This document shows positions 25,601 to 60,850 of a DNA stretch of 64,000 nt, one piece after another. The notes beneath the pieces are model-generated. The model saw only the letters and a program-made list of their open reading frames with translations, did no database searches and was not told where the DNA came from. The translations under genes and the position numbers were made by a program. Origin of the DNA: Parelaphostrongylus tenuis (lineage: Eukaryota; Nematoda; Chromadorea; Rhabditida; Metastrongylidae); assembly GCA_019055375.1 (NCBI GenBank), contig JAHQIW010006965.1, forward strand, positions 248,001 to 312,000. Direction: 5' to 3'. The number at the start of each line of letters is the position of its first letter. Positions within the stretch are counted from its first letter, which is position 1.

Positions 25601-28600
25601 GATATATTGAAATTTGAGCGTGCTCTAAACAAAGCACTCGAGATAAAGGTATATTATAATAATCATCATATGTAATTGTATAACAAGAGGACTCGTGTAG
25701 TGCAATAGTTATATGACCCTGTGATACACACGTGGTCATCGCCTTGATCTTGCCCATCAGGCTTAACATAGATAGCACTCATCCCCTAGTGTCCTCAGAT
25801 ATGCCTTCTATCAGCGTTGCGATACGTACATGTTCGAGCTGCATGGTACGTCAATAGGAATGATAAACAGCGCATCTATTGTATATTTAATACCTGAAAA
25901 TCCTGGATAGTACACATAATATGGTGCATAAAGTGCACCCTATTCCCCTCACATTCCAGTGTGAAGAATTACGCCAAACACTTTGACATTGTTGTCTAGT
26001 TGATCCTATTTGAAGAAATTTTGATGAGCCCATATGAAATTATTGCAGGCTGTGCATCATGGCTTTTAATGGCGACGTTATTCCGCATGCCGGTATCAAC
26101 CACTCATTCGATTGTAGGAGCTACTATTGGCTTTTCCGTTGTTCTACGAGGATTTCAAGGAATTCGATGGATGAAAATCGTTAATATCGGTTGGTTTGGG
26201 TGAAGTCGTAGTGATATTGACATGTTTCTATTATGTTGTGTTTCAAAAAGTTCTACAAGAAGTGCTAAATAGTTTTTCCATTAAAAAAATTAGCAAAGCT
26301 CTCACAATTTAGAAAAGAGTATTTTCGACTTGTGAGAGTACTTTTATTCGCGTTACTTTCAGTGAGCTCCTGGGTTTTATCGCCTGTTCTCTCTGGAACA
26401 GTGTCTGTCATTCTTTACATTATTGTTGACATTTCAGTTCTAAGAAGGGTGAGCATTGATCTTTGAGAGCGAATTCGATTTTTCAATGAAATTTCGAAAG
26501 AAATTATGATTCCTTCTCAGAAGCATCCGTTAGAATGTGGACTGCGAGCATTACCTTTGTTCTACTTCGTCTGTATCACCTTCAATGCGTTCATGGTGAC
26601 ATATGATGGCTCAAGATGTCTGTGTTCAGAATAGTTTTTTGTTGATTTGTCCTCAAACGAGTGATTTTTTACAGTACTCAATTTTGACAAGATTCCTATT
26701 TGGGGAGCAGTACTAATTTCTATTAGCTGTGGTTTAATTGCTGCGCTATTCGTTCAATTTATCAGCAAACCAAGGATTCGCAGAAGAATTCAGGGTTCGC
26801 TTTTTCAGATTCTTTTTTCAAATGCCTATATAAAGTTGGAGCTTTGAACTAGACATCAAGGAAAAAGTGAGGAAGAAGAACTTAGATTCACACGTAATTT
26901 ATTACATAGTGTTTTCAAACTTTCGACTTATATGTATTGAAAACGGATTTTCTAGAATCATCTGCGATGCGGAATGTGGCCTTTGGGCCGGAACTGGAAA
27001 TGGGTCAAGCCAGGAATGGTAAAAAAGATCTTGGAGGTGAAGTTAACTGCTTAAGTGAGTGAATGATGTAAGCACCAATCAAATGGCACTTCAAAACCTT
27101 TAAAAATAGCCAAACACGTCATTCTGTTGCTAGTTTGTGTCTTTTTTGAAGAGTCGACACGAATACAGATAAATGATATCTGAACTCTGGAGTCTTCGTT
27201 GCTAGCTTCCAGAGATTTTCTAGAGTTAAGGCATTTCAATAATGGCTTGAAGATTTTTTTTCAAAAATTTCTTCCAATGTGGAGCGACAGTCGCTGACGT
27301 GTCAACAATAAGATATCTGACGAATTTTTTTGCAGAGGCAATGGCATTGGTAAGATTTAGTGTCAGTTACGGTCTCCTAGAATGTCATATCACTTGTAAA
27401 CAATATTTCCCAAATGTTGCTATCGAGCGCTTCCTTAAGAACATGCAAAATTCCCATATGCCTGATAATTATTTTTGAGCCATGCATATGGTCTGTTATG
27501 GGCTCTTGTACAGTGCAACACATGTTTCGACCTTGCAGCCTCGTCAGTTGCACAGTGTCTCTCGTCTTAGCCAATCCTCTTGTGGGAACCTAACCCCCTT
27601 AAATACAGGTGACGCAGACGTACTATTTACATGTGCCATCAAGTGAAAGAATCACTGGCAGTGTTGTGCACTCGATGGCTCTTGGCTGCTATTTATTTAT
27701 TTATTTATCTATTTATGAAATATCGTACAATTCGTTCGAGTGTTTTCTCAAGACCACGCACGAATTTTAGTATGTCTGACAACATTTTTTAAGCCATGCA
27801 CGTGGTTTGTCATGGGCACTCGAATAGAACGGTATGATATTTCTTAATTACCAGCCAAGAGCAATCGAGTACAACACTGCTCATGTAGTGATTTCTTTCA
27901 CTTAATGGCGCCTATAAATAGTACGTTTGCGTTTTCTCTACGTGAAAGAGTTGGGTTCCCCCTCCCCCCCTTCAACGATGGATTGGCTAAGACGATGAGC
28001 ACTGTGCAGCTGACGAGGCTGTAAGGCCTGAAACATGTGTATTGTTTTGTATAAGTACCAATGAAGTACCAATAACAGACCACATGCATTACTCAAGAAT
28101 AATTATCAGGCATGGTTACCACACGATATGGAGCTGGCAATACCTGGCTTTTTATTTGTACCCGAAATGTGATGCATGAGACTTTTAGCAATGAATCTCG
28201 TTGATTAGTCGCTACAAACCAACCCGTAGAGCAACTTGACTTCGACGGAATTTGATAATGACTTTTATCACATTCTATTGCCTGCACACGGTGTATAAAA
28301 GCTATCTTGCGCATTATTCCTTGCGATAGATAAGTTGATAGGATATTGAGCAAGATATTAATTACTAAATGATTAGAGGCTAAGGAATTGCACTAAATTG
28401 GTTGTTAGATCCACGTATATGATGGAGTGGGTCAACTTTGAAGAATGACTAATCGTATGAGACTGAACATCGCGATTAGTATGGAATAGGTCACACTTTG
28501 CAGGATGAAGTAGGTATATGTAGAAGTTTATACAAGCCTTAGTAATATTTTATGCACGTTTTCAAGTGACGGATAACTTGCAAAGGGACCTTGTGCTTCA

Positions 28601-34600: not shown

Positions 34601-37575
34601 GATAGCTCAAACTCCACCATTTTGATGTTGTACGTCATTAACGGTAACGAACTTTTCAATTAGCTGGACTGTTGCTGAATAGCCATTGAGAAGGCTAGAC
34701 CTACTTATTGCTTAGGGTTAATATTTACCACAAATTCTCTACGAATCGCTTTTGGGAGGGCACTGCCGTCATAGGCTATGCAGCTGTTTAGTGGAATCAT
34801 CCTCACGTGGAGATAAATACGTGCTTCCTCATACCTAGGACGACCGGTATGGGTGAAATTTACATGCATCCTTCTCAACATTCTCAGATGGATATTTATA
34901 ACATCACACCACTACTAAAGATCAATAGAATAATGTTTACCTAGAGAGTAAAAGAATGAAGCTCTCGATGTTGATCAGTTTCTGGAGGATGGGCCATGCT
35001 GTATCAAGTCAGCAGCGCTATCCTCCCAGACAAGTCTGGTATCAATATACCCACCCAGGAGGGATGGTAGGCTTGGTGGGCCATGAGCGCCGGATCGAAC
35101 GATAGGCCACGTGTGCGGCACAGAGCACCTCTAACCACTAAGCCATGCACTCTATGTAAAAAATAATATTCAGTAGTCTGTAAGGTTTTTATTTTACTCT
35201 ATAAGTATCGCTTTTTGATCTAGGTTATGCATTTCAAATCAAGCAAATCCACAACAATGCAATTCAAAAAATCTGCGACAGTCGTGTGTCAGTGTCACTT
35301 CTGTTTCGCATAAATGTTGAGTGCCTTCGGCGATCTGCAGAAAAAGGGACTTATCTGTCTCTTATATATGCAAAAGTTTTCAACATAACTTCGCGTAACA
35401 CGATAGAAAAACTAGTTTCCCCTCTGTAGAGTTTTGTGGAAAATCCTGGATACCAAATCGATGATTTTGAAAATGAGAAGAAAAGCTTAGAAAACTAATC
35501 TTCATTTGAAGCTTCACGGAGGTTGGTACTTTTTTCCCCATCGAATCTTCTTCTTTCCGGTTGATGGGTTTTTCGCAGTTGCTTGTGGCTGACGTTTCGG
35601 CAAATACGCCTTCTTCAGAGCCTTACCATCTAATCCAGGAACTTTGAAAATTAGAAGAAAAGCTTAGAAAACTAATCTTTATTTGAAGCTTCACGAAGTC
35701 CCTGGATTAGATGGTAAGGCTCTGAAGAAGGCGTATTTGCCGAAACGTCAGCCACAAGCAACCGCGAAAACCCATCGACCGGAAAGAAGAACATTCGATG
35801 GGGAAAAAAATACCAACCTCGTGAAGCTTCAAATAAAGATTAGTTTTCTAAGCTTTTCTTCTCATTTTCAAAGTTTTATATTATTAACATGCTGAGGTTT
35901 CAAGAAAGTCGGTCTTTCGAATTGTTACAAAATCGATGAATGTCCGTGATATTTCTTGATCGTTATTGTTGATCACCCTTTTCATCAGCTATATCATCCA
36001 CACAACTACTGGTACTGGACCAGATAATTTTTGAAATCGCAGTGGACAGACAAGTGTGTCGAATTGGTTGTCGACAAATCCTCATATTCTGATTTGAACC
36101 CTACCTTATACAGGAAAGCGATATTTCATGGAAATAGAAATTTCCAAGAACAGCCATTTTGTAACGTCACAGTTATCGTATTAATTAATGATAAAGAGCG
36201 GAGTTCCGTAATAGTGATCATAAATGGATGCGCCATGTATTCGACTCCTTCTATCAATCAGTATAGAGGTAACCGAAACGTATTTTGCGAATGCAGTGAA
36301 CTTGAGGTGCATTACTGTTCCAGTAAGACAGCAGTTTCTACTCTCCACAGCAAGCTGCTGCCAGTTTGCTGATCCAAGTGAGGTGAAGCATCAGTGGCCC
36401 TTAAAGTGGTATCGAGCCATTTATCGGTAATGTGTATAATGCAGGCGCCTCCAATCATTGAGATGCACACTTTTCTTCATTAAAGATAATTTGATTAACT
36501 CTTAAACAGCCATAAGAGTCATTTGCTTCACACCGCGCGACGTGCAATCTCACTGAGGTACTGTAATGGCGGCGTCGCGTCTTGTGGGAAAGCGACGGCG
36601 TGACGCCGCCTGCCTATCAACGCTGATCCTCAAAGGGGTAACGAAAAGTTAACAAAGTTCTTTATAGATGTGCCCATTGCGTTATCAATTTCACTAGAAC
36701 GGCCAACAATTGGTGAAGCAAGAAAAGTGAAATGATAAAGGGTGATGACAGAACAGGAGCGTCGTTAGTGCAGTTGGTTTAGCAAGTATCTTTGAGAGGG
36801 TAAAATGGGGGTTCGATTCCCATTTGATGTTTAGAGTTTTGCGTTTTACTCGAGATTATTGGGCATATATTTGTAACATATAGCATCTCTAGAGCAATTG
36901 AATATGAAGAATTCTGTCATTTCTAAAACACCTTTCTATCCAAGCAGATTTGGTCATTTATTCGAAAAAAGATACTTATGTTGTACTGTATCGTTGTATC
37001 GTGAATTATATAGATATCCATTGATTTTAGCGGTTTCACCATCGAGTTTGGCGCTGCCTTGACCGCACTGGTCTGCAGTAAACTTGGACTACCGATCAGC
37101 ACAACACATTGTCTGGTAAATACCAAAAGCAAAAAACTTTTTCTTACAATAAGAATGCTTTCGGAAAGCATCGAGCTGCTTATAATTAAAACGTTCTCAA
37201 AACAATATGATATGAAAGCCTTCTCCATATCAGTGTGAAAGTACTCCTTTCAAGGTTGGATCAGTGGTTGCTGTTGGTCTTGTGAAATCACGTGAACAGA
37301 TTAAATGGTCCATATTTCGTAATATTGTAATTTCATGGTTTGGTCACTCTTCCAGTATCAGGGTTAGTAATTTTTTTATTAAGAAATGGACGAGGAAAAT
37401 GCGATCATAATACGACGAATCTGGGAAAAAGACTAAGCTTTACTAGTGGCGTCAAAAAAGAAAACAGATAATTTATTCGAGAACCAAGCTTTCCAGGAGT
37501 AATATAACATTAGAAATAGAAATTTCAGGTCTGATCTCAGCTGGGCTCATGCTCTTACTCAAATTGGCGTTGTAA
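22590..37575 (+). CDS. PiT/PHO4 family sodium-dependent phosphate transporter (gene 2, 15 exons)
   Basis: This is a Na+/phosphate symporter of the SLC20 family, expected in the plasma membrane with about 12 helices. The exon chain is 22590-22640, 22756-22942, 24238-24339, 26049-26189, 26363-26448, 26521-26617, 26675-26794, 26956-27036, 29250-29335, 31907-31956, 33260-33329, 33422-33537, 37031-37115, 37255-37342 and 37529-37575. All phases agree and give about 468 residues. Both PHO4 repeats are present: [16 protein letters not shown] near residue 43 with [14 protein letters not shown] near 128, and HGANDVSNAIAP near 328 with [13 protein letters not shown] near 417. The hydrophilic central loop (about residues 262-310) is short. 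The penultimate exon carries two extra G residues, so its end is ambiguous. Introns are loaded with mariner, SINE and ribozyme-bearing repeats. The start is the ATG after a consensus acceptor. Confidence 0.92.
22756..22942 (+). CDS. Gene 2 exon 2 (N-terminal PHO4 signature)
   Basis: It follows TTTTTTTCCAG and encodes [17 protein letters not shown], then [16 protein letters not shown] and a second helix ending [10 protein letters not shown]. Phase 1 out at GTGAGG. This is one of the two inverted PHO4 half-repeats. Confidence 0.95.
23430..23880. other. GC-rich block inside gene 2 intron 2
   Basis: This stretch is clearly richer in G+C than its surroundings and has open frames on both strands (23432-23632, 23693-23881 and 23674-23859), with phrases such as GACCGGGCAGGGCCGATCCG. 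I find no motif. It may be a retroelement fragment or inserted foreign-composition DNA. Confidence 0.4.
24238..24339 (+). CDS. Gene 2 exon 3
   Basis: It follows ATCTTCAG and encodes [18 protein letters not shown], then [15 protein letters not shown]. The donor is GTTGGT, phase 1 in and out. Confidence 0.85.
24671..25060 (+). pseudogene. Mariner transposase with internal deletion (N-terminal HTH joined to C-terminus)
   Basis: In a 129-codon frame, residues 57-84 ([19 protein letters not shown]) match the end of the mariner paired-like DNA-binding domain. Residues 88-129 ([20 protein letters not shown], then [15 protein letters not shown]) match the extreme C-terminus. The catalytic DDD core of about 200 residues is missing, yet the junction is in frame. 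An upstream piece in another frame ([10 protein letters not shown]) suggests an earlier frameshift. It lies in intron 3 of gene 2, same strand. Confidence 0.8.
25163..25485 (-). mobile_element. Hammerhead-ribozyme repeat unit, - strand
   Basis: A complete-looking unit of the about 318-bp family: ribozyme at 25206-25267, then the body (GTTAGGTGAAACATTCACCT, CACTCGATTGCTC, ATACCTTTATCTCGAGTGC) to GACCACGCTCAAAT. The core CTGATGA / GAAA is intact, but stem I lacks one base next to CTGATGA. It is joined to a + strand copy on its right. Confidence 0.8.
25206..25267 (-). ncRNA. Hammerhead ribozyme, type I (nearly intact)
   Basis: Read on the - strand: GGGTTC, GCCCG, CTGATGA, GTC-TGTAAG-GAC (stem II), GAAA, CACGTG (stem III), TC, then CGGGC and GAGCCC pairing back as stem I around an internal loop. 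One stem I base is missing compared with the copy at 43341. Confidence 0.75.
25496..25667 (+). mobile_element. Hammerhead-ribozyme repeat unit, + strand, 5' part
   Basis: The ribozyme at 25499-25560 is followed by ACCAGACCACATGACATG, TTGAAATTTGAGCGTG and CACTCGAGATAAAGGTAT. It breaks off after about 170 bp. The core reads GAAC instead of GAAAC (one A lost), so this copy should not cleave. Confidence 0.75.
26049..26189 (+). CDS. Gene 2 exon 4 (first STTH motif)
   Basis: It follows TTATTGCAG and encodes [19 protein letters not shown], then [15 protein letters not shown]. His is intact in this STTH. The donor is GTTGGT. Confidence 0.95.
26363..26448 (+). CDS. Gene 2 exon 5
   Basis: It follows TTACTTTCAG and encodes [18 protein letters not shown], then [10 protein letters not shown], a helix conserved in the family. 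Phase 1 in, 0 out. Confidence 0.93.
26521..26617 (+). CDS. Gene 2 exon 6
   Basis: It follows CCTTCTCAG and encodes [18 protein letters not shown], then [14 protein letters not shown]. The donor is GTCTGT, phase 1 out. Confidence 0.9.
26675..26794 (+). CDS. Gene 2 exon 7
   Basis: It follows TTTTTTACAG and encodes [19 protein letters not shown], then [18 protein letters not shown], entering the basic start of the cytoplasmic loop. Phase 1 out. Confidence 0.9.
26956..27036 (+). CDS. Gene 2 exon 8 (central loop)
   Basis: It follows TTTTCTAG and encodes [18 protein letters not shown], then ARNGKKDLG, before GTGAAG. The hydrophilic loop is poorly conserved, so support comes from phase 1 to phase 1 agreement with both neighbours. 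Confidence 0.7.
27466..27825 (-). mobile_element. Hammerhead-ribozyme repeat units, - strand, diverged
   Basis: The ribozyme at 27501-27563 has CTGACGA, stem II GGC-TGCAAG-GTC and GAAA. The body carries GTGCACTCGATGGCTC and a (TTTA)n run before CAAGACCACGCACGAATTTT. A short second start follows at 27790-27825 (AAGCCATGCACGTGGTTTGT), so this was a tandem of at least two. Confidence 0.7.
27830..28112 (+). mobile_element. Hammerhead-ribozyme repeat unit, + strand, diverged
   Basis: The body begins at the ACCAGCCAAGAGCAATCGAG segment and ends with a ribozyme near 27995-28055 (CTGACGA, GGC-TGTAAG-GCC, then TGAAAC with an extra T). The tail ACAGACCACATGCATTACTC matches other copies. The extra base before GAAA probably inactivates it. 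Confidence 0.65.
29250..29335 (+). CDS. Gene 2 exon 9
   Basis: It follows ATCGTTCAG and encodes [19 protein letters not shown], then TIKLFSTIQ, before GTAAAC. The end runs in frame into VFTACF of exon 10, as the family's FxxLQ-type junction does. A - strand frame over the same bases is a shadow. Confidence 0.82.
30380..30739 (+). mobile_element. Mariner-derived MITE, + orientation
   Basis: It has terminal repeats TTTGGGAAAAAATCTGAAAA and CTCAGAACTTTTTCCCCAA. Inside, [17 protein letters not shown] is the start of a mariner transposase, followed by decay. It shares CACAAAAAT-type and GATTGGTATATAATTTATC segments with the copy at 19.7 kb. It sits in intron 9 of gene 2. Confidence 0.8.
30765..31440 (-). 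pseudogene. Mariner transposase relic with inverted C-terminal ends
   Basis: On the - strand [12 protein letters not shown], then [12 protein letters not shown], then [13 protein letters not shown], then NNEFYERD, then [16 protein letters not shown] follow the order of a mariner catalytic C-terminal half (DNARPH, SPSDYHLF, RW-x-K-x2-ADG-x-YFE). Stops and shifts interrupt it. At 31320-31390 the + strand again reads [11 protein letters not shown], so the C-terminal end is present twice as inverted arms. Confidence 0.7.
31907..31956 (+). CDS. Gene 2 exon 10 (second PHO4 signature)
   Basis: It follows ACTATTGTAG and encodes [16 protein letters not shown]. The Asn-Asp pair is conserved. The donor is GTATGT, phase 2 out. 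Confidence 0.95.
32160..32670. repeat. Dispersed repeat of unknown type (intron 10)
   Basis: 32165-32350 matches 48895-49080 in the same orientation (TAGCACAGA, AACAATCATTCAAAAGC, AAAATTATGTTTTAC). 32370-32660 matches the reverse complement of 49150-49430 (GGAGCACGAAAAGCACAT, GTCCGTGAATTGGCC). A shorter relative is at 4500-4640. No coding motif was recognised. Confidence 0.55.
33260..33329 (+). CDS. Gene 2 exon 11
   Basis: It follows CTACTTTAG. The split Ser codon is completed, then [18 protein letters not shown] and RQEEE. This finishes the second GANDVSNA signature. Phase 0 out at GTGAAG. Confidence 0.9.
33422..33537 (+). CDS. Gene 2 exon 12
   Basis: It encodes [18 protein letters not shown], then [19 protein letters not shown]. 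The acceptor CAGTTAAG is weaker than the others, but length (116 nt) and phase match gene 1. Confidence 0.9.
34945..35154 (-). repeat. tRNA-derived SINE, family 1, - strand
   Basis: Complement of the family-1 SINE: GATCGAACGATAGG (B-box side) and AGAGCACCTCTAACCACTAA (A-box side), with CCTCCCAGACAAGTCTGGTA in the body. It is internally shortened and lies in intron 12 of gene 2. Confidence 0.8.
35463..35876. mobile_element. Fold-back element with hammerhead-like motifs in both arms
   Basis: The left arm (35463-35642) and right arm (35698-35876) are near-perfect reverse complements of about 180 bp. The 55-bp spacer repeats the first 50 bp of the left arm directly (AGAAGAAAAGCTTAGAAAAC). Each arm carries CTGAAGA, a GGC/GCC stem, GAAACGTC and an AGCC/GGCT pair. 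The RNA would form a very long hairpin. It lies in intron 12 of gene 2. Confidence 0.8.
35712..35764 (+). ncRNA. Hammerhead-like motif, second type
   Basis: GGT, AA, GGCT, CTGAAGA, A, GGC-GTATTT-GCC, GAAA, CGTC, AGCC, a 7-base loop, ACC. Stem I pairs AGCC/GGCT and ACC/GGT, and stem III would be the 4-bp palindrome ACGT. The extra A after CTGAAGA is a departure from the consensus, so activity is doubtful. An identical motif sits on the - strand near 35580-35632. Confidence 0.45.
36568..36610. repeat. GC-rich hairpin
   Basis: GGCGGCGTC (36568-36576) pairs with GACGCCGCC (36602-36610) across a 25-base loop, inside intron 12. It stands out against AT-rich surroundings. Confidence 0.5.
36757..36830 (+). 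repeat. tRNA-like SINE head, family 2
   Basis: A good A-box (TTAGTGCAGTTGG) and B-box (GGGGGTTCGATTCCC) are present, but the flanks do not pair as an acceptor stem. A decayed tRNA gene is the alternative. Confidence 0.55.
37031..37115 (+). CDS. Gene 2 exon 13 (second STTH motif)
   Basis: It follows TTGATTTTAG and encodes [19 protein letters not shown], then LPISTTHCL. It is 85 nt, as in gene 1, with His intact. Confidence 0.95.
37255..37342 (+). CDS. Gene 2 exon 14 (ambiguous 3' end)
   Basis: It encodes [18 protein letters not shown], then [11 protein letters not shown]. In gene 1 this exon continues with STLPASG. Here the following bases read VTLPVS only if one G is removed at 37342-37343, and the normal donor then has one G too many at 37361-37363. 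With the sequence as given, only a GT at 37343 (exon end 37342, phase 1) keeps the terminal exon in frame. Confidence 0.75.
37529..37575 (+). CDS. Gene 2 terminal exon
   Basis: It follows AATTTCAG and encodes [14 protein letters not shown], then TAA. It is 47 nt, as in gene 1. This is the final transmembrane helix. Confidence 0.85.
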
Positions 37576-37849: not shown

Positions 37850-39538
37850 AGAAATGCCAAACAGTTTCCTCATCAGGAAACTGGCACACTTTCTCCAACA
37901 AACTGCAATTTTGAGCTTATGGTAGGCTTTCGATGAGCTTCTTCTTGTTCTTTCCGCTGCTTTGATTTTCTGTATCAGATATGTTGTTCACGAATTTCCA
38001 TTTAAAAATGTATAGAAGTCTCTTTATTCAAGTTTAAATGAATTCACAGTTCTAGCTATGCCACTGTTTTTGACACTTCAGGTATTCATGTATAAACTTT
38101 CGTTTCGTATTATCAATAAATCAGAGTTTGATATTGCGATAGAATAAGGAATACTAACGATACACGATATCGTCCTTGAAGCAGCAGAAAGCAATTAAAT
38201 GCATGAAGGTTCCTGTAGAAACGATTTTCAGGACTTTGTTCAGAAAAACTGCTGAAGTCTGGAAATTAAAGTCATGTTTTCAATCCACTGGTTTTGAGTT
38301 GTGATAAGAAAAAATGCTAATAAGCTGGAAAAAAAGCAAAAAAGAGAAAACTGAGCATGGAATCGCACTATTGAGGATATTTATAAATGGTGTCAATTGT
38401 TTATGCGAAGATTTTTCAGTATCTTCGAATGCCTAATTAGTGAATGTCTTTTACACTATCTAGTTGTGTCTTACGTCAACTCTTCTCAGCGAAATTGCTT
38501 TTGGTAAAGTGCTGATGATTTTTCAACGATCAAATCATCTCAAAGGGAATTTAGACATTTGAAAATGAGCTTTGAAAAATTGACGACAGTGTTCAAGCCT
38601 GTGAAAAATTCGAAGAGAGAAGGGCTGCTGCAGGTATACGTGTCACTAAAAACGAAAATCCGTCCATTCGTTTCAATATGGAAGTACAATCGCCGATAAG
38701 GAACAAGAGGAGAAATACGTTTTCTTAGAATCCAAAAATTGATGATAATGCCAAACGCTGCTTCTCTGACAACCCTCTAGTCCACTCTCTAAGAATTAAA
38801 GAGGTTCCGGCCAACATATTACATGGCCGATTGGTTCAAAACCGCCTACGTAAGACAGAGGATTGCGTACATGACCCTTAATGGTAGGAGCCTAGACTGC
38901 ATGAGCTCAGGCACATTATATCAAATCTCAGCAGCTTCAGAGGCTTACGAGAAAGTGAAAACCTACGTTTTAGCACTCTAGGTGTCCTCTGAAGGGCTTC
39001 GAAAAATTCTTTCACAATACGTCAAATATTTTGTGCGATATGTAATGATTGAATGGACAAAAGGGCGAGACTATTATGGGCCTGCATGAAAGATTACCAA
39101 GATGGAAATTCGAAAAGTCGGATAAGTACTTCTGCGTATAGAACAAAAAGTACGACAGTGAGGGCTTCAAGGTTGTAATAAAAAGGTCTACAGTGAGGTC
39201 TTTGAGTTGCTAGTAAAAGGTGGCAGGAATCGTAGATATCGGCGCAAAAAACCTTTGAGGCCGTCTGGAGTCGCTAGATACTTTCTTGTCCGCTCTCTCT
39301 CTTTCTATTGAGTTCAGGAATCAATAGAAAAGGAAGGTGTCCAATCATAAAAAATGTTATGGCGGCATATCTCAGATTCCTTAGCCTCAAGCCTAAGCCC
39401 AAGCGTGAAGCCTAACACAAGATCCCGGTGACCTGACCAGTTGTCTTTCAGCAGTAGGTTTCTAAATAGCAGCTAGACTATTGATTTGATTTTCAGATTT
39501 TCATTACGTATGCGAAATATCAACCGAGTAATTAATGA
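37850..39538. other. Intergenic, no gene recognised
   Basis: Past the gene 2 3' end there are only short frames. At 39150-39230 a GACAGTGAGG/TACAGTGAGG phrase repeats, suggesting a small local duplication. Confidence 0.5.
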
Positions 39539-39913
39539 TTGGGTAAAAGGTTTTTGAGAAAATGCTTGTAAAACGTTTATCTGTGCACCTATTACACCCA
39601 AACACGGGCAAATCTGATAGTCAAAGCACTTCTCAAATAGTCCAAGAACGTTTCAAACTTTCTTCTCCTTCGTCGAATTTATTGGACCACCTGTACACCA
39701 TACTTTTGCCAATTGTGTCTTTGCCCCAAGCCAGACTGATTCGTCCACTTGCCACCGTTGCATTTAAACCCAACAGCCATTCTTGAAATAAGTGGATAAC
39801 ATACATACCAATCAACACGGGAGAAGACGAGCTTTCAAGTGAGCCTAAAAACACAAAAAATTGCAGACACCCAAAAAATTACAAGCATTGTCTCAGAACT
39901 TTTTCCACAACCT
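39539..39913 (-). mobile_element. Mariner-derived MITE with HTH-domain fragment
   Basis: It has ends TTGGGTAAAAGGTTTTTGAG and CTCAGAACTTTTTCCACAAC. On the - strand the interior encodes EWLLGLNATVASGRISLAWG, then TIGKSMVYRWSNKFDEGEES, which is the mariner N-terminal DNA-binding region with the YRW-x-NKF signature. The catalytic core is absent. Confidence 0.82.
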
Positions 39914-41070: not shown

Positions 41071-43080
41071 ATGCTAGCGGTACCTGGTCCGCACACAAAA
41101 AAAAATGTGGTGACCAATCGTATAAATAAGTAGTAAAGCAGATCAGTTTTATCTCTGACCACCACCGAATCCACAGTCACGACGTGAAATAAACTAAGCC
41201 GGTATTTGTTCAAAAAAAAAGTATTTTTAATAGGATGACGCGGCCCTTCAGTCTAATATTAATGTCGCTCTCACGATAGTAATCACATTCTTCAGCGAAA
41301 TGGTGACACACTTATCAGAAAGGGTAAAACTCTCACGTGACTGTTGGCTTATTGATCCTTGCAATTCACTGTCCAGAGCAGATAGAATTGCATTCTACAC
41401 ACGACCATGAACCGGCATGCGAATGCTGTTTCGACCTCTAAACCAAGCCGGCAAAGCTTTTTTTACTCTTTAGGGCTGCAAACTGTTAGCAAAATCGTCT
41501 CTGTAGAACAAAGTAGCCAATAGCTGTGTATCTTCTTGTCTTGGTTAATCATATGACTTGGTTTCGCATATTACTCGAATCACTGTACTTTTTTGCATGC
41601 TTCGTTGTCGTCCATGATCATTTACGGATATCTTTAGAGTTATGATCAGCTCGACTACCATTTGAGGTTTCCTTTTCCTGAAGGTGGGAAGGTAATTGGA
41701 CTTTGATCTTATTTCTTCCGTGAATTATTTGATAGGTACTACCGGATTTTTTCATGTTTTCATCACAGAGAAAGTCACCGGCATTTGTATATTGAAGAGC
41801 TTGTTTCAGATCGGTCTGATATCCGTTTACTGAAACTGAAGATCGGGATGGCTTGAGACATTGTCGGGTCATATAACCACGCGAGCAACGGAAGGCACTT
41901 CCAATCACTACACTTCCCGTGTCCTCGAAGGCAGTGGACAGATTTAGTTAATTAAATACTTATAATGATTCCTTTGAAGGCGAGTTCTAGCTGTCCTTGA
42001 GTCGATCTTCATGAAGTTATTCGTTACAAGTCTACATCCTTCCTTACTTTTGTTATTATCTGTTTCAAAGATAATTGAATCTTCATAAAAACGTCCAGAG
42101 GCGAATATTCGACTTCAGTTTACAATTTTTGTCATTCATTCAATGATTGATCAACAGCTGATGGTTCGTCGTGTCGACTCGTTCCTTCTTTTTCTGAACA
42201 TGACATTGAGGAAAGTGATGAACTATCGAGTGTTAATTTCTTCTATTACGATGAAACCAGTTCCTCTCTCAGTTCAATCCGAGGAATTCATATAGAGACT
42301 TTCTGAATTCCAAATTGGAGATGCAACTAGAAATCATGAAACCTAGTATGTGACACAGAAAGATCAGAGATTTTTTTGTTAAAAAGTGTTTGTTGTTAGT
42401 TCCGCTCAATCATTCATTGTATTACAAAATCTTGAATATTATTCAAATTTTTCTTCGGTTAAAAGTGCTTTTTGAAACCTTTCACGTCAGTCTGACACTC
42501 GAGAACAATAAGGTGCGTTTGAGAAATCACTATTTTTTAACGGACGAAATTCCATTCATCCAATTATCTCTTTATCGTTCGAGCAATACGTACTGCCGAC
42601 AAAAGAAACTGGGAAACTAAAGCACTAGATAAAGAGCCACAAAAAAAAAGAATTTTCATTGCGTAAGGATTTCAGAAATTACCCTCATATTCGGTAATTA
42701 CTATCAAGTGTTTGTTCTTTGAAAAATTTCCTCTGGAAGAATCATTGGACGGCTCTTTTAGAGCCTTTTTTCCAAAGATAGTCGCCAACACCTGGGAATC
42801 GGCTTATTATAATGATATCGACATCGATCTCTAAAATAAGAATTATTCCAATCATGAAAGCTCCTTAATATCTGAGATTGCTTGACCCTTTCACAGCTGT
42901 GTGTACAGTTATGTGTACGTATGAAAGCTTGGATTGGTTTTCAAAAGCACTTGTGTTGAGTCCATTAAAACCTCACAGATCTAAAAAAGGCGAGATCTGA
43001 GAAATCAGTTTGAAGCGTCGAAGCTGATAACTGACCAATAAATCAATGTTGATTTTGATGCCAACATCAGCCGCACTGTG
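41071..43080. other. Intergenic, no gene recognised
   Basis: A - strand frame at 41618-41908 (96 codons) is polar and Gln/Ser-rich (QTDLKQALQYTNAGDFLC). I cannot assign it. Nothing else is structured. Confidence 0.45.
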
Positions 43081-43449
43081 ATCCTTTACCAGACCACATG
43101 ACATGTTGGTTCAAATAATAATGAAAGGATCTATTGAAATTTGAGCGTGGTCTTAATAAAGCACTCGAAGAAAGGTATATTATGATAAAATACCAGCCAG
43201 CTAGCAATCGAGTGCGAAAACAGTCTGTGTTAGGTGAATGTTTCACCTGACAAAGAGCGTAAAGCGTAGGTCGTCGATAACTATATATAAGGAGCGTGAC
43301 GCTCCCGAGAGAACTGACTATGAAAAGATCGACAGACGACGGGTTCTGCCCGGCTGATGAGTCTGTAAGGACGAAACACGTGTCTCGGGCTGTACAAGAG
43401 CCTTTACCAGACCACATGACATGTTGGCTCAAATAATAATGAAAGGATC
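43081..43449 (+). mobile_element. Hammerhead-ribozyme repeat, partial tandem (318-bp period)
   Basis: CCTTTACCAGACCACATGAC occurs at 43083 and 43401, exactly 318 bp apart, and each is followed by TCAAATAATAATGAAAGGAT. Between them is one full body (TTTGAGCGTGGTCTTAATAA, GTTAGGTGAATGTTTCACCT, TCGTCGATAACTATATATAA) and one intact ribozyme (43341-43403). The unit length and head-to-tail layout are those of retrozymes and Penelope-type terminal repeats. Confidence 0.85.
43341..43403 (+). ncRNA. Hammerhead ribozyme, type I, intact
   Basis: CTGATGA is at 43354-43360. Stem II is GTC/GAC (43361-43363 with 43370-43372) closed by TGTAAG. GAAA is at 43373-43376. The palindromic stem III CACGTG (43377-43382) is followed by U43383 and C43384. 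Stem I pairs 43385-43390 (TCGGGC) with 43348-43353 (GCCCGG) and, past a 7-against-1 internal loop, GAGCCT with GGGTTC. The predicted cleavage is between 43384 and 43385. The very short stem III suggests cleavage mainly as a dimer, as reported for Penelope-type hammerheads. Confidence 0.88.
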
Positions 43450-43872
43450 ATGTAAAAGGGTTAAAAATAAATGGGCCGATTATACTACTTCCGACTGCAT
43501 ATAAGTTTGAATAAACTTGTATTTGCTATTGTGTTTCGAACCAAACGGCAGATAATCAATTTCTTATAATAAAGCTATTTCATCTAGCTTCTTAGAAAGC
43601 TTTGCCGTTACGAAAGCGATGGAACGCAGAGAGTGCAGTGATAGAGATGGCGCTTAATTGCTTGCTCAAAGCTCTAATCCGAATACCCCTCTGGATAACT
43701 GAGTTTACCATATCATTAGGACTGAAAAGATAATAGCATATTGGCCTCGAAAAGCTCCTTCTGTCTCACAAAAGTGGTGCCCGAGGATTGCGAAGGTCTT
43801 GAAACGTTCTGGCATAGCCATCTTGCGATCTTAGTGGGAAGCAACCAGCGATGGAAGGATCGAAAACATAAT

Positions 43873-44170
43873 TATTAGCTGAGCCAACATGTCATGTGTT
43901 CTGTTAATGGCCTCTTGTACAGCCCCATACACGCTTCAGACCTTACAGTCTCGTCAGTCGGGCAGGACTCGTCGTCTTTTAGCCAATCCTGTGTGGGTGC
44001 TCCAGTCCCCACACTAAGAGGTAGCGTCGACGAACGATTTACACTGTACGTCAAGTGAGAACATCACCGAGCATACAGTGTTGTACACTCGATTGCTCTT
44101 TGGCTGGTATTTGTGTAATATTATACCTTTGTTTCGAGTGTTTTATTGAGACCACGCTCCACAATATGTC
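43873..44170 (-). mobile_element. Hammerhead-ribozyme repeat unit, - strand, inactive ribozyme
   Basis: The unit is recognisable from GAGCCAACATGTCATGTG to GAGACCACGCTC. The ribozyme (43910-43970) keeps CTGACGA and GAC-TGTAAG-GTC, but GAAA is altered (TGAAG). Confidence 0.75.
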
Positions 44171-44925
44171 CCATAATTACTATTTAGCATATCAAAATAG
44201 AATAAAAACTAAATAAAAAAAATTAAAAAATAAAAAAGTAGTAACGAAAACGTTTATAAATAGGGAAAATCTTGAGTGTTTCCCTGATTTATATAAGAAT
44301 TCGTTGACGTTCGTGGGTGACTGATGTCGGTGACGACACCTTGGAAAAGTAGTTAATCTCAGCACGGTATGAGATGTCGTGCCGGAGGAAACAATTGTTA
44401 GGAAAGATAGTAATGCTTTTCTATAGGTAAAACTTGATGCTTTCTCGACGAAGCTGGTTTTCAGCGATTGGGCTTAGTCTTCGAGCAATAAAGTATAATT
44501 GAAAGTTCACATTCTCATGATTTTATAGGAAAGTCTTCGATCTTCTGCAACAATCACATAATTAGAATCCAAACTTAGCAATTTGAGATTGAATTTTTTT
44601 GAATTCTGAATTCTCAGCATAAAAGCTCCAACTTCAAACGAAATCATGCATTAGGAAACACCATCGCACTGACCATCAGTCTTCTTTCTTGCTCGAATTT
44701 CGAGTTCTGAAGCAAAAAATAGGAATTTCCTACGACTCCACTAAAATCTGTGATTTGTCGTGTTTATTCGCTGGAAATTTTCTATGAGCTAGGATGAGTT
44801 GAATTGAAGTTGAGAGTTCCAATTATTTCCGCGAAGAGATCCATAGATACCTCTTTGTCGCGACACTGTTATGGATTGTATCTCATAATTATTATTTGAG
44901 TCAACATGCCACGTGATGTGGTAAT

Positions 44926-44988
44926 GGGCTCTTGTACATCCCGATACACGTGTTTCGACTTTATAGTCTCGTCAGTCGGGTAGAACCA
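44926..44988 (-). ncRNA. Hammerhead ribozyme, type I, core intact
   Basis: CTGACGA, stem II GAC-TATAAA-GTC, GAAA, CACGTG, TA, then TCGGGA against ACCCGA (five pairs in stem I). The stem II centre pair is A-U here and U-A in the copy at 43341, a compensating change. Confidence 0.8.
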
Positions 44989-45188
44989 GGCGTGGTCTTA
45001 TTAAAACACTCGAAATAAAGGTATAATATTATAAAAATACCAGCCAAAAAGCATTAGAATCTACAACACTGTATGTTCAGTGACACTCTCACCTGACTAA
45101 CAGTGTAAATCGTTCGTCGCCGCTTACGTCTTTGTAGGGGGAGTAGCGATTCCCAAGAGGAGTGGCTAAACACTAGAATACGCAGGAA

Positions 45189-45249
45189 TCTTCCCGACTG
45201 ACGAGACTGTAAGGTCGAAATACGTGTATCGAGCTGTACAAGAGCCCAT
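45189..45249 (+). ncRNA. Hammerhead ribozyme, core intact, weak stem I
   Basis: CTGACGA at 45198-45204, GAC-TGTAAG-GTC, GAAA, TACGTG, TA. Stem I TCGAGC against TTCCCGA has mismatches, so folding is doubtful. Confidence 0.65.
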
Positions 45250-45345
45250 TACCAGACCACATGACCTTTGGCTCAAATAATAATTATGCGATATATTGAA
45301 ATTTGAGCGTGGTCTTAATCACTCGAAATAAAGGTATAATGTTAT

Positions 45346-48300
45346 GGATTGCACCTGTTGAGCTCGCCTCGATTCACATGGTACTTTTCAATTAACCGAC
45401 ACCTCATTGATCGTTTCTCGACTTTTTTTTGTTTGTTCTGATTTTAGAATTATTACAACCTTCTCTACTGTTCTGCCATTAAAACAATCAATACGCGAAA
45501 TGGTGTACTTCCTTTTCAAGCAAGTTTTTTTCTTTTGAGAACATCGACAAAGTACAGCAGTTGATTACGCCCTACTTATTTTTGTTCCTTTAATTTGCTG
45601 TCGTTACCGTTGACGTTTTTGTGATTCTTTTCAATGTGACAACTGAACAGGTCTCACTACTAAAGCGCATTCCCACCTTAAACATTGCTGGTCGCTTCAA
45701 CAAACTCACTTCCTAGAACAGTTCTTTACACAATTTTTTTTTGTCATTTTTGATAGCAACTTATTACAGAGTTTTCACGCGCTGATTAGCTGTTTGAAAA
45801 GAATTTAGCTAGAAGTCTATTCTCTTACTTGTCCTTCTTTCTTCTTCTTTGCTTCCATACTGATCTTTTCTGGAGTCAACCTTCTATTTACTGCCTGCGT
45901 AATATGCCGAAATGCAGACTACTTTGTGAAATATGACCGCAAGAGTACTTAGCTGCGAACAAAGCTTGCAATTTTGTATGCATAATAAAAAGGGCTCAAA
46001 CCCCGGCAGACCATTATAAGGCAGCGCGTATTCGCACTGCGCCATTCATGTCCTTGCTATGCTTTCCTCTCGGTCGAGGTTTAAGTTTTTCGCTGGCAAT
46101 GAACAACCACTCGTCAAAGGGAATGGACCTACGGAGAAGTCTGCAGTGTACTCGCTTGTGCTGAAGCCTCTTCTAGTGTATTTCATTCAAATACCGATGA
46201 AACTTAACATTAATCCACATTAATTCACGAAAGTTGGGTCTTAAGAAAATTCATTTGCTGTGATCTTTTCTCTTTTCTTGAGTTTCTCAGCGTACATCTG
46301 CGATCTACCGGTCCTCTTGAAGTTACCTGCTTTTTAACGGACTTTGCGCAATAATTGTAACATCAATCTTCACTTTTCTTGAAAGGATTACTCTGTTGAT
46401 GATTTTCCTTCGCGAAAGCAGCTTGATGACTGATCTTTGCATCTTTTTATTCGTTTACTTTACACTTAAGATCGTAGTCTTTGGTACCGAACAAAAGTAG
46501 GCAGCAATGTTTCATTGTCTTGTCATGCAAATAACGCACCATAGAGCAACCGAATCTTGTCTCACGACAGCTGACGATAGTTTCTTGATCACTGAGAAAG
46601 GAGTATACAAGAGTCTGTAAGCCTAATATATTGGGTTCAGGTACTCAAACGTCCTTCTAAAAATAGATTCGGCGAGAGTTTGTATGTTTAATATAATGGT
46701 GTAGGTGCCTAACCACCTCCAGACGATGGAGGCCACTCTGGCCCTCAACTTTAGAGATCTATTTTCGCTTAACAAAGCTTTTCATCTACGATGTTAACAT
46801 TCATATAGGAGCACAATTTCAATATTTTGTTTGTTTTCTATTAAGGCTTCATACTACGCGTAAAAGCGAGAATAGTATTATGTATCACACTCAATTTGAT
46901 TTCTTTGGTTTGTTAGGGTCTAAGGATCTTTTTTTTTTCGTGTAGAGAAATTCATGTTTCATCAGAGTATTAAAAAACCAGAGGTTTCCTTCGAAATAAA
47001 AAGAAAGAATGTCTTCTAAATAGCGCAAATTGCAGTATCGATCATGTTGTCGTCCGGAAAGGGTTAAACACATTCCAGTCATCCCATGAACTCTCGAATG
47101 TTCTTGGACCGTCTACGCTCTTCTACAGTGGAATGCTCTTGGACAGTCTATGGAGTCCTTCGACGTAGCTTCCCTTTGCACAAAGTGGTCAAAGACTCTG
47201 CTAAGCAAGCCATTTGCGAGGTTCTCACGGAAGACGGAAAAGCTATAAAAATGTGTGGTATTTCGACTCCGTAGGTCATTGGAGTATTGAACAGTTGTCA
47301 TAGTGGCTCAATCTTTAGATTGTTTGGGAGCACATTAACTGAGAGCGTTGTGAATACGACAGTGACTAACCCCACTTTGCTCTTGCCTATGTGCCTAAGG
47401 CGAAAAATCTCAGTAATGGATCTCTGCCCATTACTCTCCTGTCGATATATATAGATATTTGTTTTGTCATCTGCTTTATAACAGATAGAAATAAACAATC
47501 GTTTTGACTTGTTGATGAGACACAGAGTACACATAAGTCACAAGTAGGCAAGCTAAAAAAAACTGTATTCAGTTTCTGAATCTACAAATCGCATCCGAAA
47601 ACGACTGCATCACCAAATGAAATGGCACCAAAAAACAACTAGCAAAAGCATGCTGATTCAATACTTCTCCTTCCAATGTCGCATAAAAGAACAGTGTATG
47701 TGAAAACATGTTCCGAACAGCCCTCAATGTGTGAATAGGAAGAAGGCTTGAGGAGGAATCCTCGAACGTGACGTGGAAAATAGTTATTTCTAATAGCTAC
47801 AAATGGTGTGAGCCTTTTGGCTCATATTTAGAAAGAAAAAGCAGCTTTTACAGATGCTGATCTCAGCGAAATAGTACTCCTTTCCTTTATTTTCAGCAAA
47901 GTAAGCGCAACTATAAAGTGAAGAGCAAATCTGAATAGCTGGCAGCAGTGATGAAAAATCGCCGAGCACTTGGAATCCCTAGCTAATCGAAACCGATTAC
48001 ACGACCGTCTACCAAAATCAAAAGTTACATAACTGGCGCAATGATAGAAACGATGATTGCGTGAGTTTGGGAACAATTCGCGAGTTCTTGTAAAACTTGC
48101 AAGAAGAATACTTTGGTGAAATGAGTAAACCACTTTGCCTCTGCGTAGAAGTGCACTTGATTGGAAAACTTGCAGCCTAGTAAAAACATTCCACCAGTCA
48201 CGTGTAGGCTATAAAAATATAACAAAAACGATTTTGCTGTAAACGTCACTATCCTTTCATGAGTATCTGAAATATCGGTGCAAAAAATCCTCAAAGCAAT

Positions 48301-50009
48301 CGTCATGGAATCCAGAACATCGAATTTGGACCGCAAGAACTAATATTTCGTGATCACACGCGACACTACCTAGCGCCTAATACTTTAAGCTGATTTTTCC
48401 TCAGATGAGTCAGGCAAGGGCTTGATCCATGAACGACTCTGTGCAGCTGCTCCTCAATAGACTTGTTCCTTTTGTTATCTCAAAAAGAACAAAACGGTGA
48501 AAGATAAAAAGAAGGTGCCAAGCTTGAGATCTGGATTTTTTAAGAATCAAGTTTTTCTGCTGACGTCATAAATGTGTTTGACTGAGTAGATTGCACGTCA
48601 TTTTGACCCTCGCGGCCTTAAAGAAGGAGATATTGTCTAAATGTCAGTTGCTATTGTTTTTAACACGCGATGATATTCTTAACTTCGTATCTGCATATCC
48701 AGAAAGCAATGAATGTGCGGAGCCAAGAATAACTTTCATTCTTTTCCTGTTGTGCAATTGTCTTCCAATGTGGTGGTCTGCTCCGATCACGGTGACGTAC
48801 ACAAGATCTTTTTAAAATGGTGAACTTGTTGCCATTTGAGGACGAAAACTGTTCATGTTAGACCCACTCACTGTGCGTCCATCGTTATGTGGCTGTCGGG
48901 AACTTTTCCGTTTGGTAGCACAGACTTTAAGCCTATTCTCTACTCTCGGCAAGAAGTTTTCATTGAGAGTGTTGGTAATCATTCGAAAGCCTGAATGAAA
49001 GCTAGAGCTGCAAGCAGCCGGCTTTTTCAATTAGCCTTTTGTAACGTTGAAAATTCAAAGTAAAATTATGTTTTACGCGCACATATTTTTTGCATTATAG
49101 AGCCCTTTTTTGGACTGTTAGTAATCGCTCGACAGCGTAAAGTAAACCGATTCCAACGTTGTGCTTATATCCCGGAGAGATAGTTTCTCTACAACGTAGC
49201 GCGGAAAACAAGATTGATTCTCATGCGTGAGCAAGTGTTCTTTGGCCGATTCACGGACGGTGGGATGGAAGGCAGGGACGAGTCGGAGGGATATCAATCG
49301 ATAGCGCCTAAATCAAGTGTATCTGACTAAAAATTGTTTTTCCGGTCTGGAATAGACTTTAGATTAAACGTTTAACTCTGCTAGTAGAAGAGTTTCTCTA
49401 CACGTTCATGTGCTTTTCGTGCTTCCAGCGAAATGATGAGTGAGTTGCGCGGCTAATGTGAAACATACTTTTGTTTTTGATTTTGCGTCAAGAAAGGCTA
49501 TTTTTGAAAAATCTGATTGAGCACAGCACTAGCTCGAAATTCAATGATTACTTTATGAAATATGTATTTTTGTTCATAATCTGGTATTGATGCTTTTGAC
49601 GATTGTTTTTTCGCTTTTTTTCCGAAACCATGGATGAGATTTTCAAGCTTGTGAAAAATGTTTAAGAACACATCAAGTAACTTTTGATGAACCTTTGATC
49701 TATTGCGGTTATGTGTTGTTATTCTCTTTGTGCAAATTAAGGCTAATGTCTGAAGTAGTGTTCAATTGAACTTCAGGCTATTAGATATTGTTATGATGAA
49801 ATCCTAATCTGAGAATGTCACTCGTTCAGAGAGATCTGCTCCTTTTCTCGAAAACTAACGTTTGTAAGTCTTTACAATATTTAACTTTTTCACATTGCTG
49901 CTCTATCGTATATCTCGTTGGAAGAGGGACGAAAAAAATAACACGATCAACAGTAAGATTCTACTCATTTCCCCACACTAATTGTTTCGTCACTCATATC
50001 TCATAATTG
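45346..50009. other. Intergenic, no gene recognised
   Basis: Short frames only. 47086-47170 contains two copies of a 35-bp phrase (ATGTTCTTGGACCGTCTA / ATGCTCTTGGACAGTCTA). 46610-46710 has two loosely similar segments. 48895-49430 is the partner of the intron 10 repeat. Confidence 0.5.
48895..49430. repeat. Dispersed repeat of unknown type (copy 2)
   Basis: The left half is direct and the right half inverted relative to 32160-32670, so one copy has been rearranged or both are composites. Shared words include AAAATTATGTTTTAC and, inverted, CACGAAAAGCACATGAACG. Confidence 0.55.
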
Positions 50010-50432
50010 CTATTTGAATTTGCTATTTGAACCAACTCGTCCTGTAGTCTGTTGAATGGGCTCTTGTACAGCCCGATACACGTGTTCGGACCTTACAGTC
50101 TCGTCAGCAGGGCAGAACCCCCTGTCTTTTAGCCAATCATCTGAGGACGCTCTAGTCCCCACACTAAGAGTTAACGACGACGAACGATTTACACTGCAGT
50201 GCTGTCGAAGGAAAATCACTGTAACGGCAGTTTCGTACACTCAGTTGCTCTTGGCTGGTATTTTGAAATATATCATACCGTTATTTCCGAGCACTGTTCC
50301 AAGATTTCTTAAGACCATGCTAAAATTTCAACAAGTTTCATATCTTATAACTGCTATCTGATATTCGATATGTTGAAATTTGAGCGTGGTGTGAAGAAAC
50401 ACTCGAAAATAACGCTATAATATATGTTCCGT
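50010..50432. mobile_element. Hammerhead-ribozyme repeat, - strand unit plus + fragment
   Basis: A - strand unit (ribozyme 50058-50120, GAAA core lost: rc reads GGTCCGAACACG) is followed at 50365 by a + strand fragment starting TGTTGAAATTTGAGCGTGG. It has the same inverted layout as at 25 and 45 kb. Confidence 0.75.
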
Positions 50433-50562
50433 CACTGCTCTCCCATTTATAGCAGAAAACTTAAAGCTTCAGCTCGGTAAATGTGATCTCTATGGATTGA
50501 ATCCACGAAAAATCATAGCACACTCAATGATGCAGAGTGATATGTAAAACTTTCGCGTCAGG

Positions 50563-50631
50563 CGGGACTCGAACCCACATCTCACTCTATCCGGGAGCGC
50601 GTGCTCTAGCCCGTTGCACTACTGGCGCCCA
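50563..50631 (-). repeat. tRNA-like SINE head, family 2
   Basis: On the - strand, A-box-like GTAGTGCAACGGGCTAGAGC and B-box GTGGGTTCGAGTCCC are well preserved. The ends do not pair well enough to call a tRNA gene. Confidence 0.55.
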
Positions 50632-51344: not shown

Positions 51345-51808
51345 CGAGTGCTATTTTACCTTTATTTCGAGTGTGTTCTCGAGACTACGCTCGAGTTTCA
51401 ACATATCTCTTGATATTATCTGACCCAACATGTCATGTGGTCTGTTAATGGGCTCTTGTACAGCCCGATACACGTATTTCGACCTTACAGTCTCGTCAGT
51501 CGGGCAGAACCCTTCATGTTTTAGTGTTTAGCCAATCCTCTCGAGAATCGCCACTCTCCCTATAAAGAGGTAAGTGACGACGAACGATTTACACTGTATA
51601 TTGAGCGAAATTACCATTGAATATATCATATTTCTACACTCGATTGCTCTTTGACCGATATTTTTGTAATATTATACCTTCATTTTTAGTGTGTTTTTAA
51701 GACCACGCTCAAATTTCAACATATCTCATAATATTGGCTAAGCCAACATGTTCATGTGGTCTGTTAATGGGCTCTTGTACAGCCCGATACACGTGTTTCG
51801 ACCTGGTA
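51345..51808 (-). mobile_element. Hammerhead-ribozyme repeat, partial tandem on the - strand (319-bp period)
   Basis: GGGCTCTTGTACAGCCCGAT begins at 51450 and again at 51769, 319 bp apart. The first ribozyme (51450-51512) is intact; the second stops inside stem II at 51808, where unrelated sequence begins. The tail of a preceding unit (CTTTATTTCGAGTGTGTTCT, 51355-51420) shows a third partial unit. Confidence 0.85.
51450..51512 (-). ncRNA. Hammerhead ribozyme, type I, intact
   Basis: On the - strand: GCCCGA, CTGACGA, GAC-TGTAAG-GTC, GAAA, TACGTG, TA, TCGGGC. Stem I has six perfect pairs. Predicted cleavage is between 51469 and 51468. Compared with 43341, stem II has a swapped middle pair and stem I gains a U-A for a U-G. 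Confidence 0.85.
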
Positions 51809-60559: not shown

Positions 60560-60850
60560 CTGAAAAGGCACTTATACAGCTGACCAACTAGTGTTTCGCC
60601 CTTCCAAGCTCCTCAGTGGGGCGGTTCCTTTTGGTTTCGCTGATCCCTTAGAGATATACTCCTACATATAAAGGAATCGACGTCGAGTAACAAATCACCG
60701 CAAATCAGGTGACAAAATCCCCCGACATTGCAGTGACCACAGTCAAGTGCTTGTGGCTGCTCGACTGCATATTCAAACGTCATACTCTCGACTGTATATT
60801 TAAACGTCGCTCAAAGTAATGATAATCTGATACCGCTCGGTACTCATACC
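60560..60850 (-). mobile_element. Diverged relative of the hammerhead-ribozyme repeat
   Basis: On the - strand, CTGAGGA, GCT-TGGAAG-GGC, GAAA, CACTAG and TT keep the hammerhead order, and downstream words (ATCAGGTGAC, AAATATACAGTCGAG) sit where the main family has similar ones. Stem I pairing is poor. It appears to be an older subfamily. Confidence 0.5.

Follow-up and report, generated by a model that had tools for sequence, protein, structure and literature searches.

A hammerhead-ribozyme repeat family in the nematode Parelaphostrongylus tenuis with insertion ends resembling those of Penelope-like elements

What kind of element is a 318-bp repeat that carries a hammerhead ribozyme in a nematode genome, and what could have copied it there? 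The question is raised by a locus, here called E3 (43080-43449, + strand), in a 64,000-nucleotide stretch of Parelaphostrongylus tenuis DNA (contig JAHQIW010006965.1 of assembly GCA_019055375.1, positions 248,001 to 312,000 of the forward strand), the whole of which is referred to as the window. A reading of the sequence alone had suggested a retrozyme-like system, a proposal that is now well supported by the ribozyme itself, by a dispersed family of copies and by their fixed ends and target duplications. To judge from these sequence features, the unit is very probably a metazoan-type retrozyme, likely to be reverse-transcribed and inserted by the Penelope-like element (PLE) machinery of its host; in the accessible text of the papers cited below, PLE mobilization of animal retrozymes had previously only been proposed.

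The hammerhead and its unit

The sequence-only reading had placed a type I hammerhead with a palindromic stem III and a two-part stem I at 43341-43403. The Rfam model Hammerhead_1 indeed matches 43348-43390 (+) with 34.9 bits, above the gathering score of 34 (E-value 5.5e-05 for the window), and the full fold occupies 43342-43402 (+), with the predicted cut at the same position as before, 43384/43385, after GUC. As read from the sequence, the two parts of stem I pair 43342-43347 with 43397-43402 and 43348-43353 with 43385-43390, the bulge on its 3' side is UGUACA (43391-43396), and the palindrome ACACGUGU, 8 nt long, makes up stem III. Seven intact hammerheads in the window satisfy a strict core-plus-stem pattern (the core at 43354-43384 in E3 and six others, given with their copies below), compared to none in 20 shuffled windows, and the motif is therefore not a chance occurrence. 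The fold also covaries over the 11 hammerheads that could be aligned in the window: 89.0% of cells are paired vs. 81.9% (0 of 500 shuffles), the covariation score and the number of cells changed on both sides each exceed all 500 shuffles, and the middle pair of stem II is seen as AU, UA, CG, GC and GU. Coarser measures of covariation are weaker, with 27 of 500 shuffles for pairs changed on both sides and 44 of 500 for further pair types. Score and covariation together agree with the canonical type I hammerhead of metazoan non-LTR (long terminal repeat) retrozymes. Four of the 11 aligned hammerheads (E1B, E4, E6A and E2B) fail the strict core pattern, and E1A lacks one base of stem I.

With u1 set at the first base after the cut (43385; u = position - 43066 for 43080-43384), E3 comprises 1.16 units and runs from u14 through u318 to u65, its 3' end coinciding with a site called S below. 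The period of 318 bp proposed earlier is borne out by a 52-bp direct repeat (43080-43131 and 43398-43449, both +; the second copy ends at S) with 96% identity at a spacing of 318. Between the two lies the segment u66-u115 (43132-43181, +), which reaches from S to a second site, T, and at both ends of which the 3' ends of family copies cluster. The unit is within the size and composition range of known retrozymes (318 nt and 43.4% G+C, compared to 170-400 nt and less than 45%) and appears to encode no protein of its own, since its one frame, of 121 aa, is antisense; the stop-to-stop frame over it matches nothing in Pfam at E-values up to 0.1. Folded as a circle, the unit reaches -87.8 kcal/mol vs. 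-70.2 +/- 4.9 for shuffled sequences, none of 200 being as low. Mean pairwise identity over the nine window copies is 0.76 in the hammerhead vs. 0.62 in the body, with a second rise at about u80-u154.

In the accessible text of Cervera and de la Pena 2020 (PMC7229834), metazoan non-LTR retrozymes share with the unit the type I hammerhead, the length of 170-400 nt, low G+C content, lack of a coding frame, tandem units, strongly self-paired RNA and the presence of PLEs in the same genome. The family differs from them in its nematode host (the string "nematod" occurs 0 times in that text) and in being mostly of 1.2-1.5 units or head to head, with target duplications and two fixed ends ("target site" occurs 0 times in the main text). 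Plant LTR retrozymes, as described in the portions of PMC7761336 consulted, are likewise non-autonomous and have hammerheads and RNA circles, the latter only inferred for the unit, but their hammerheads are of type III and their duplications 4 bp long, compared to type I and 10-16 bp for the unit. They also have LTRs and a primer binding site, a feature for which the unit was not searched. A literature search, with supplements and subscription papers outside its scope, returned neither retrozymes in nematodes nor PLE-type insertion scars in retrozymes.

Two fixed ends inside target duplications

Searches with blastn and nhmmer using the unit revealed nine loci in the window, eight of them strong and one weak (E9; E-values 2e-4 and 0.05), which split into a young group (E1 and E3) and older copies. 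Three have the same composite form, in which one target duplication encloses an inverted arm and, after it, a direct arm. In E1 (25162-25651, mixed orientation) the inverted arm ends at about u67 (S) and the direct arm at T, the duplication is TATTATAATA (25152-25161 and 25652-25661), and an intact core lies at 25225-25255 (-). E5 (44879-45339, mixed) has an inverted arm ending at about u69 (S), a direct arm with a T end, the duplication TGTTATGGATTG (44867-44878 and 45340-45351), and two intact cores at 44945-44975 (-) and 45198-45228 (+). E6 (49995-50424, mixed) consists of an inverted arm with an S end and a short direct arm with a T end between copies of TGTT(T/C)CGTCACT (49983-49994 and 50425-50436). 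The duplications match at 10/10, 12/12 and 11/12 bases, respectively, scores reached by random window flanks in 0.08%, 0.06% and 0.86% of 5,000 trials. The arm ends are alike in all three elements, at about u67-69 for the inverted arm and u112-118 for the direct one.

We also searched the assembly from which the window comes (481.5 Mb, 5,105 contigs) with the unit and obtained 2,508 first-look candidates, unverified as copies, 40 of which were scored and gave 90 matches. The analysis is based on 39 loci outside the window (L012-L050), which are the best-scoring and hence young and non-random; L021 and L027, like L045 and L046, look like the same insertion twice, and further, older unit matches in L024, L030, L036 and L040 were left out. 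The 61 arm 3' ends fall almost entirely at two places, 31 at S (u61-76) and 29 at T (u107-129), with one at u84; the medians are 66 and 115 nt after the cut. Among the 22 head-to-head loci, 20 combine one S with one T end, one has S and S, one has S and another end, and none has T and T (binomial 6e-5; 19 of 21 are S plus T if L027 is omitted), while the 17 loci of single orientation show nine T and eight S ends. Target duplications of 10-16 bp with a score of at least 10 were found in 20 of the 39 loci (13 of 22 head-to-head, 7 of 17 others) vs. 0.13% of mismatched flank pairs, some of them low in complexity (L014, L041). Two start sites that define a tail, inverted arms and a target duplication make up the insertion signature of PLEs, and the unit family has all three.

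Inverted-plus-direct copies inside one duplication are also a product of twin priming by long interspersed nuclear elements (LINEs), and it could be argued that a LINE mobilizes the unit and that the head-to-head copies are ordinary cases of this kind. Twin priming, however, predicts a variable end of the inverted arm, and here 60 of 61 ends lie at S or T and S is paired with T in 20 of the 22 head-to-head loci. A poly(A) tail is absent from the 3' ends inspected, and the same ends occur in PLEs, as described below; mobilization by a LINE is thus very unlikely. Twin priming had also been considered for E5 by itself and was dropped, both of its arms ending at fixed sites.

The 39 loci contain 70 hammerheads with intact cores (none in L025), and in 16 of them at least two lie on the same strand 313-320 nt apart; L024 has an additional spacing of 750, to which a second element contributes. 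These multi-ribozyme loci could give unit-length RNA, as had been proposed for a tandem with one ribozyme per unit, but the proposal does not suit E3 itself, where two cuts cannot free a 318-nt RNA because there is a single ribozyme in 1.16 units. The partial tandem of E3 is better explained as one run of reverse transcription of 1.16 laps, giving a copy with its 3' end at S. The longest run is of 3.3 units, so that tandem copies from dimer to multimer do occur in the family. Head-to-tail units, together with the four imperfect cores among the window hammerheads, might also be expected of satellite DNA amplified at the DNA level in which the ribozyme is a relic. We consider this scarcely credible: the copies are dispersed, with target duplications and fixed ends, nearly all of the 39 loci retain intact-core hammerheads, and conservation is higher in the ribozyme than in the body.

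The 59 unit-copy 5' ends in the same loci are scattered, 24 of them inside the ribozyme fold (u276-u18; binomial 1e-4). They lie rarely at u1 and often in the fold, therefore the template would seldom have ended at the cut and the enzyme would often have stopped in the ribozyme. The 5' ends of cDNA within the fold look like stalling of the enzyme, often on the second lap. At the two most frequent polymorphisms, alleles agree between laps and arms of an element in 18 of 19 elements (u160) and in 16 of 18 (u187), compared to a discordance of 0.43 and 0.48, respectively, for random pairs; the exceptions are the complex locus L040 (twice) and L047, which has a private base. Because the alleles at these two sites agree within elements, it is likely that one monomer sequence served for all laps.

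Penelope-like elements as the probable source of the machinery

PLEs had been mentioned in the earlier reading only as an analogy, on account of their minimal hammerheads. Such PLEs are present in this genome, and the connection appears closer than analogy, as the insertion anatomy of the unit matches theirs. Three decayed PLE remnants were counted in the window, a GIY-YIG endonuclease fragment at 15599-15730 (-), a GIY-YIG endonuclease remnant at 38735-39382 (+) and a C-terminal/GIY-YIG remnant at 47708-48364 (+); a fourth match (45358-45534) is weak and was not counted. The frame 15503-15775 (-) matches one protein with 70% identity over 37 aa, the relatives of which are GIY-YIG proteins, many of them with RVT_1 and PF26215 according to precomputed domains; RVT_1 plus GIY-YIG was checked on three relatives, with one RVT_1 match below the cut-off. 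Relatives for which an organism was named (5 of 17 in one set of matches and part of the best 120 of 137 in another) come from Angiostrongylus, Parelaphostrongylus, Haemonchus, Heligmosomoides, Nippostrongylus, Necator and Ancylostoma, all of which we take to be strongylid nematodes, and on this ground the host itself is likely a strongylid. The combination of RVT_1 with GIY-YIG is the domain order of PLEs (PMC11167929, in the text available). The genome search with the PLE protein gave 22,282 first-look candidates, 150 of which were scored, each at 1.2e-96 or better, and many of these have open frames of 800-978 aa. The PLE load of the genome thus appears very large, with at least two families.

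Twenty-three PLE loci were read. L072 has direct pseudo-long terminal repeats (pLTRs) of 295 bp, 99.3% alike, around a frame of 893 aa, whereas in L071 and in L073 an S arm and a T arm lie head to head; the target duplications of the three are 13 bp (L072), 12 bp (L073) and 13 bp (L071), a score of at least 10 being reached by 0.5% of random pairs. The pLTRs contain a minimal hammerhead, found by eye and by pattern (CUGAAGA, a short stem II and GAAACGUC), at 32 places in 21 of the 23 loci (absent from L053 and L064); a search with Rfam hammerhead models found none around two of the PLE remnants (E up to 5) or in seven PLE loci (E up to 2). That PLE pLTRs carry minimal hammerheads was already known (PMC7761336). 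Measured from the minimal-hammerhead cut, the 29 readable PLE ends comprise 20 S-like ends (at 49, at 57 and 18 at 63-79 nt) and nine T ends (105-125 nt), three further stretches having run on. Without the re-reads L066 and L067, which overlap L071, the numbers are 19 and eight, with medians of 74 and 120. A second PLE family ends at 63, 70 and 105 nt after its minimal hammerhead. PLE arms in both orientations with one S and one T end were found in L052, L057, L061, L071 and L073, and S ends only in L054 and L058.

The unit and the PLEs thus have in common the order ribozyme-S-T at nearly equal distances, the S-plus-T head-to-head form and the length of the duplication. Similar features are described in the accessible text on other PLEs. 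In rotifers, the pLTRs are inverted with a tail on one of them and duplications of 8-10 bp (PMC3846280), and in lizard, in vitro, two adjacent internal RNA start sites define the tail, both DNA strands are cut and extended, and the hammerhead is dispensable for insertion (PMC11167929). In these elements, as in the unit, the arms are head to head and one of them bears a tail, the target duplications are short, and a hammerhead lies shortly before the end sites, which are 30-40 nt apart there vs. some 45-50 here. Unlike them, the unit has no frame for a reverse transcriptase or an endonuclease and has a full instead of a minimal hammerhead.

The same end geometry, tail and duplications would be seen if the unit were the solo pLTR of an unseen PLE family that has lost its coding part, the ribozyme being that PLE's own, and a review has suggested that PLEs can be reduced to retrozymes (PMC11722881, in the part available). 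Nevertheless, a unit-like pLTR was found in none of the 23 PLE loci, most of which cover the 3' side only, and clear unit matches occur only in L055 and L059, some hundreds of bp past the PLE end. PLE coding sequence lies near the unit in one of the 39 unit loci (L012), outside the element; the hammerhead of the unit is a full type I with a two-part stem I, no instance of the minimal PLE pattern is present in the 39 loci, and units directly abut one another at a spacing of 313-320 nt. A solo pLTR is therefore a rather unlikely origin. Nor is the unit an internal part of any of the PLEs read, which would have spoken against the sequence-only reading.

Since the ends, the S-plus-T form and the duplication length are shared, the simplest account is that a PLE protein acts on retrozyme RNA. 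Transcripts of several units would be cut by the hammerhead and closed into circles of about 318 nt, or would be used in multimeric form without cleavage. Nicks would be made by the PLE protein in both target strands, about 10-16 bp apart, and reverse transcription would start on each strand at S or T, continue for up to several laps, tend to stop in the ribozyme fold and leave two cDNA arms that meet head to head. E3 may be a one-arm product with its start at S (43449), 1.16 laps and a stop at u14 (43080). PLE-type copying also agrees with the pattern of conservation in the family, in which identity is high in the ribozyme, lower in the body and rises again at about u80-u154.

Several results weigh against PLE-driven copying of the retrozyme, or blur it. 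The 39 loci are best-scoring copies and not a random draw, and a target duplication at score 10 was not found in 19 of them, nor was a target duplication found at six of the nine window loci (E2, E3, E4, E7, E8 and E9). In local comparison of the S/T region, the unit was equalled by 1 of 1000 shuffles against PLE2 and 244 of 1000 against PLE1, and six other window copies gave no significant result; in-register tests gave 24 and 61 of 1000 shuffles, with the best register elsewhere and with 8 of 489 and 18 of 486 other frame positions scoring as high. Kinship of unit and PLE in this region is thus only suggestive. The 5' ends form no pile-up at u1 (4 of 59 within about 5 nt). At rarer sites, disagreement between laps is about as frequent as in random pairs (4 of 37 elements at u44, 5 of 37 at u61 and 4 of 29 at u88), differences near the S end that we infer to be mostly later mutations, and divergence within elements (2.9%) is barely under that between elements (3.4%). 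Finally, the concordance of alleles is equally compatible with a circle and with a homogeneous multimer.

Which elements move animal retrozymes has been left open in the accessible text of PMC7229834 and of the 2024 review PMC11722881, with LINEs or PLEs among the candidates; the insertion scars described here favour a role for PLEs. A broader interpretation, to which we incline slightly, is that animal retrozymes are to PLEs what short interspersed nuclear elements are to LINEs, i.e. parasites in the form of RNA circles that have retained no more than a ribozyme and a start region of the PLE type. Rolling-circle reverse transcription would copy them, primed once per target strand, at S on one and at T on the other, which would yield the head-to-head S-plus-T form. 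Retrozymes and PLEs are both numerous in this genome, with young copies of both, and the question is therefore directly testable here. The strict pairing of S and T arms moreover offers a hint as to how both strands are made by PLEs. Extrapolation from nine loci per 64 kb and four matches in 87.5 kb of flanks would put the family, at a guess, at ten thousand copies or more.

Further copies and neighbouring features in the window

E2 (27459-28110, mixed) is an older head-to-head pair in which both arms end near S; its intact core (27517-27547, -) is accompanied by a stem I that has partly changed in step. E4 (43863-44190, -) is about one unit with a decayed hammerhead, E7 (51352-51804, -) comprises 1.4 units (u302 to u116) with one full hammerhead and an intact core at 51469-51499, and E8 (60542-60817, -) is an old copy with a core at 60586-60616. 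The weak and decayed E9 (15733-16060, mixed) is head to head, with an inverted arm at 15744-15835 and a direct arm at 16005-16060 that reaches a T-like end. It adjoins the PLE endonuclease fragment in the same orientation (15599-15835), which may reflect insertion into a PLE, or chance.

An exact 17-mer occurs in three records of viral contigs, which look like coding coincidences, and a 19-mer search of genome contigs gave no match. A Pfam search of 15 chosen window frames yielded PHO4 twice, a Mos1 helix-turn-helix (HTH) match below the cut-off and one noise match. The PHO4 phosphate transporter exons lie at 22735-23010 (+), the start of the profile, and at 37014-37235 (+), a later part; if the two belong to one gene, E1 and E2 are intronic. 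The Mos1-type transposase HTH fragment (HTH_48, just below the cut-off) is at 39636-39878 (-), and the frame at 24659-25057 (+), which had no Pfam match, is presumably mariner-like. A tRNA-Ser (GGA)-like gene (50554-50628, -) is located between two copies of the family.
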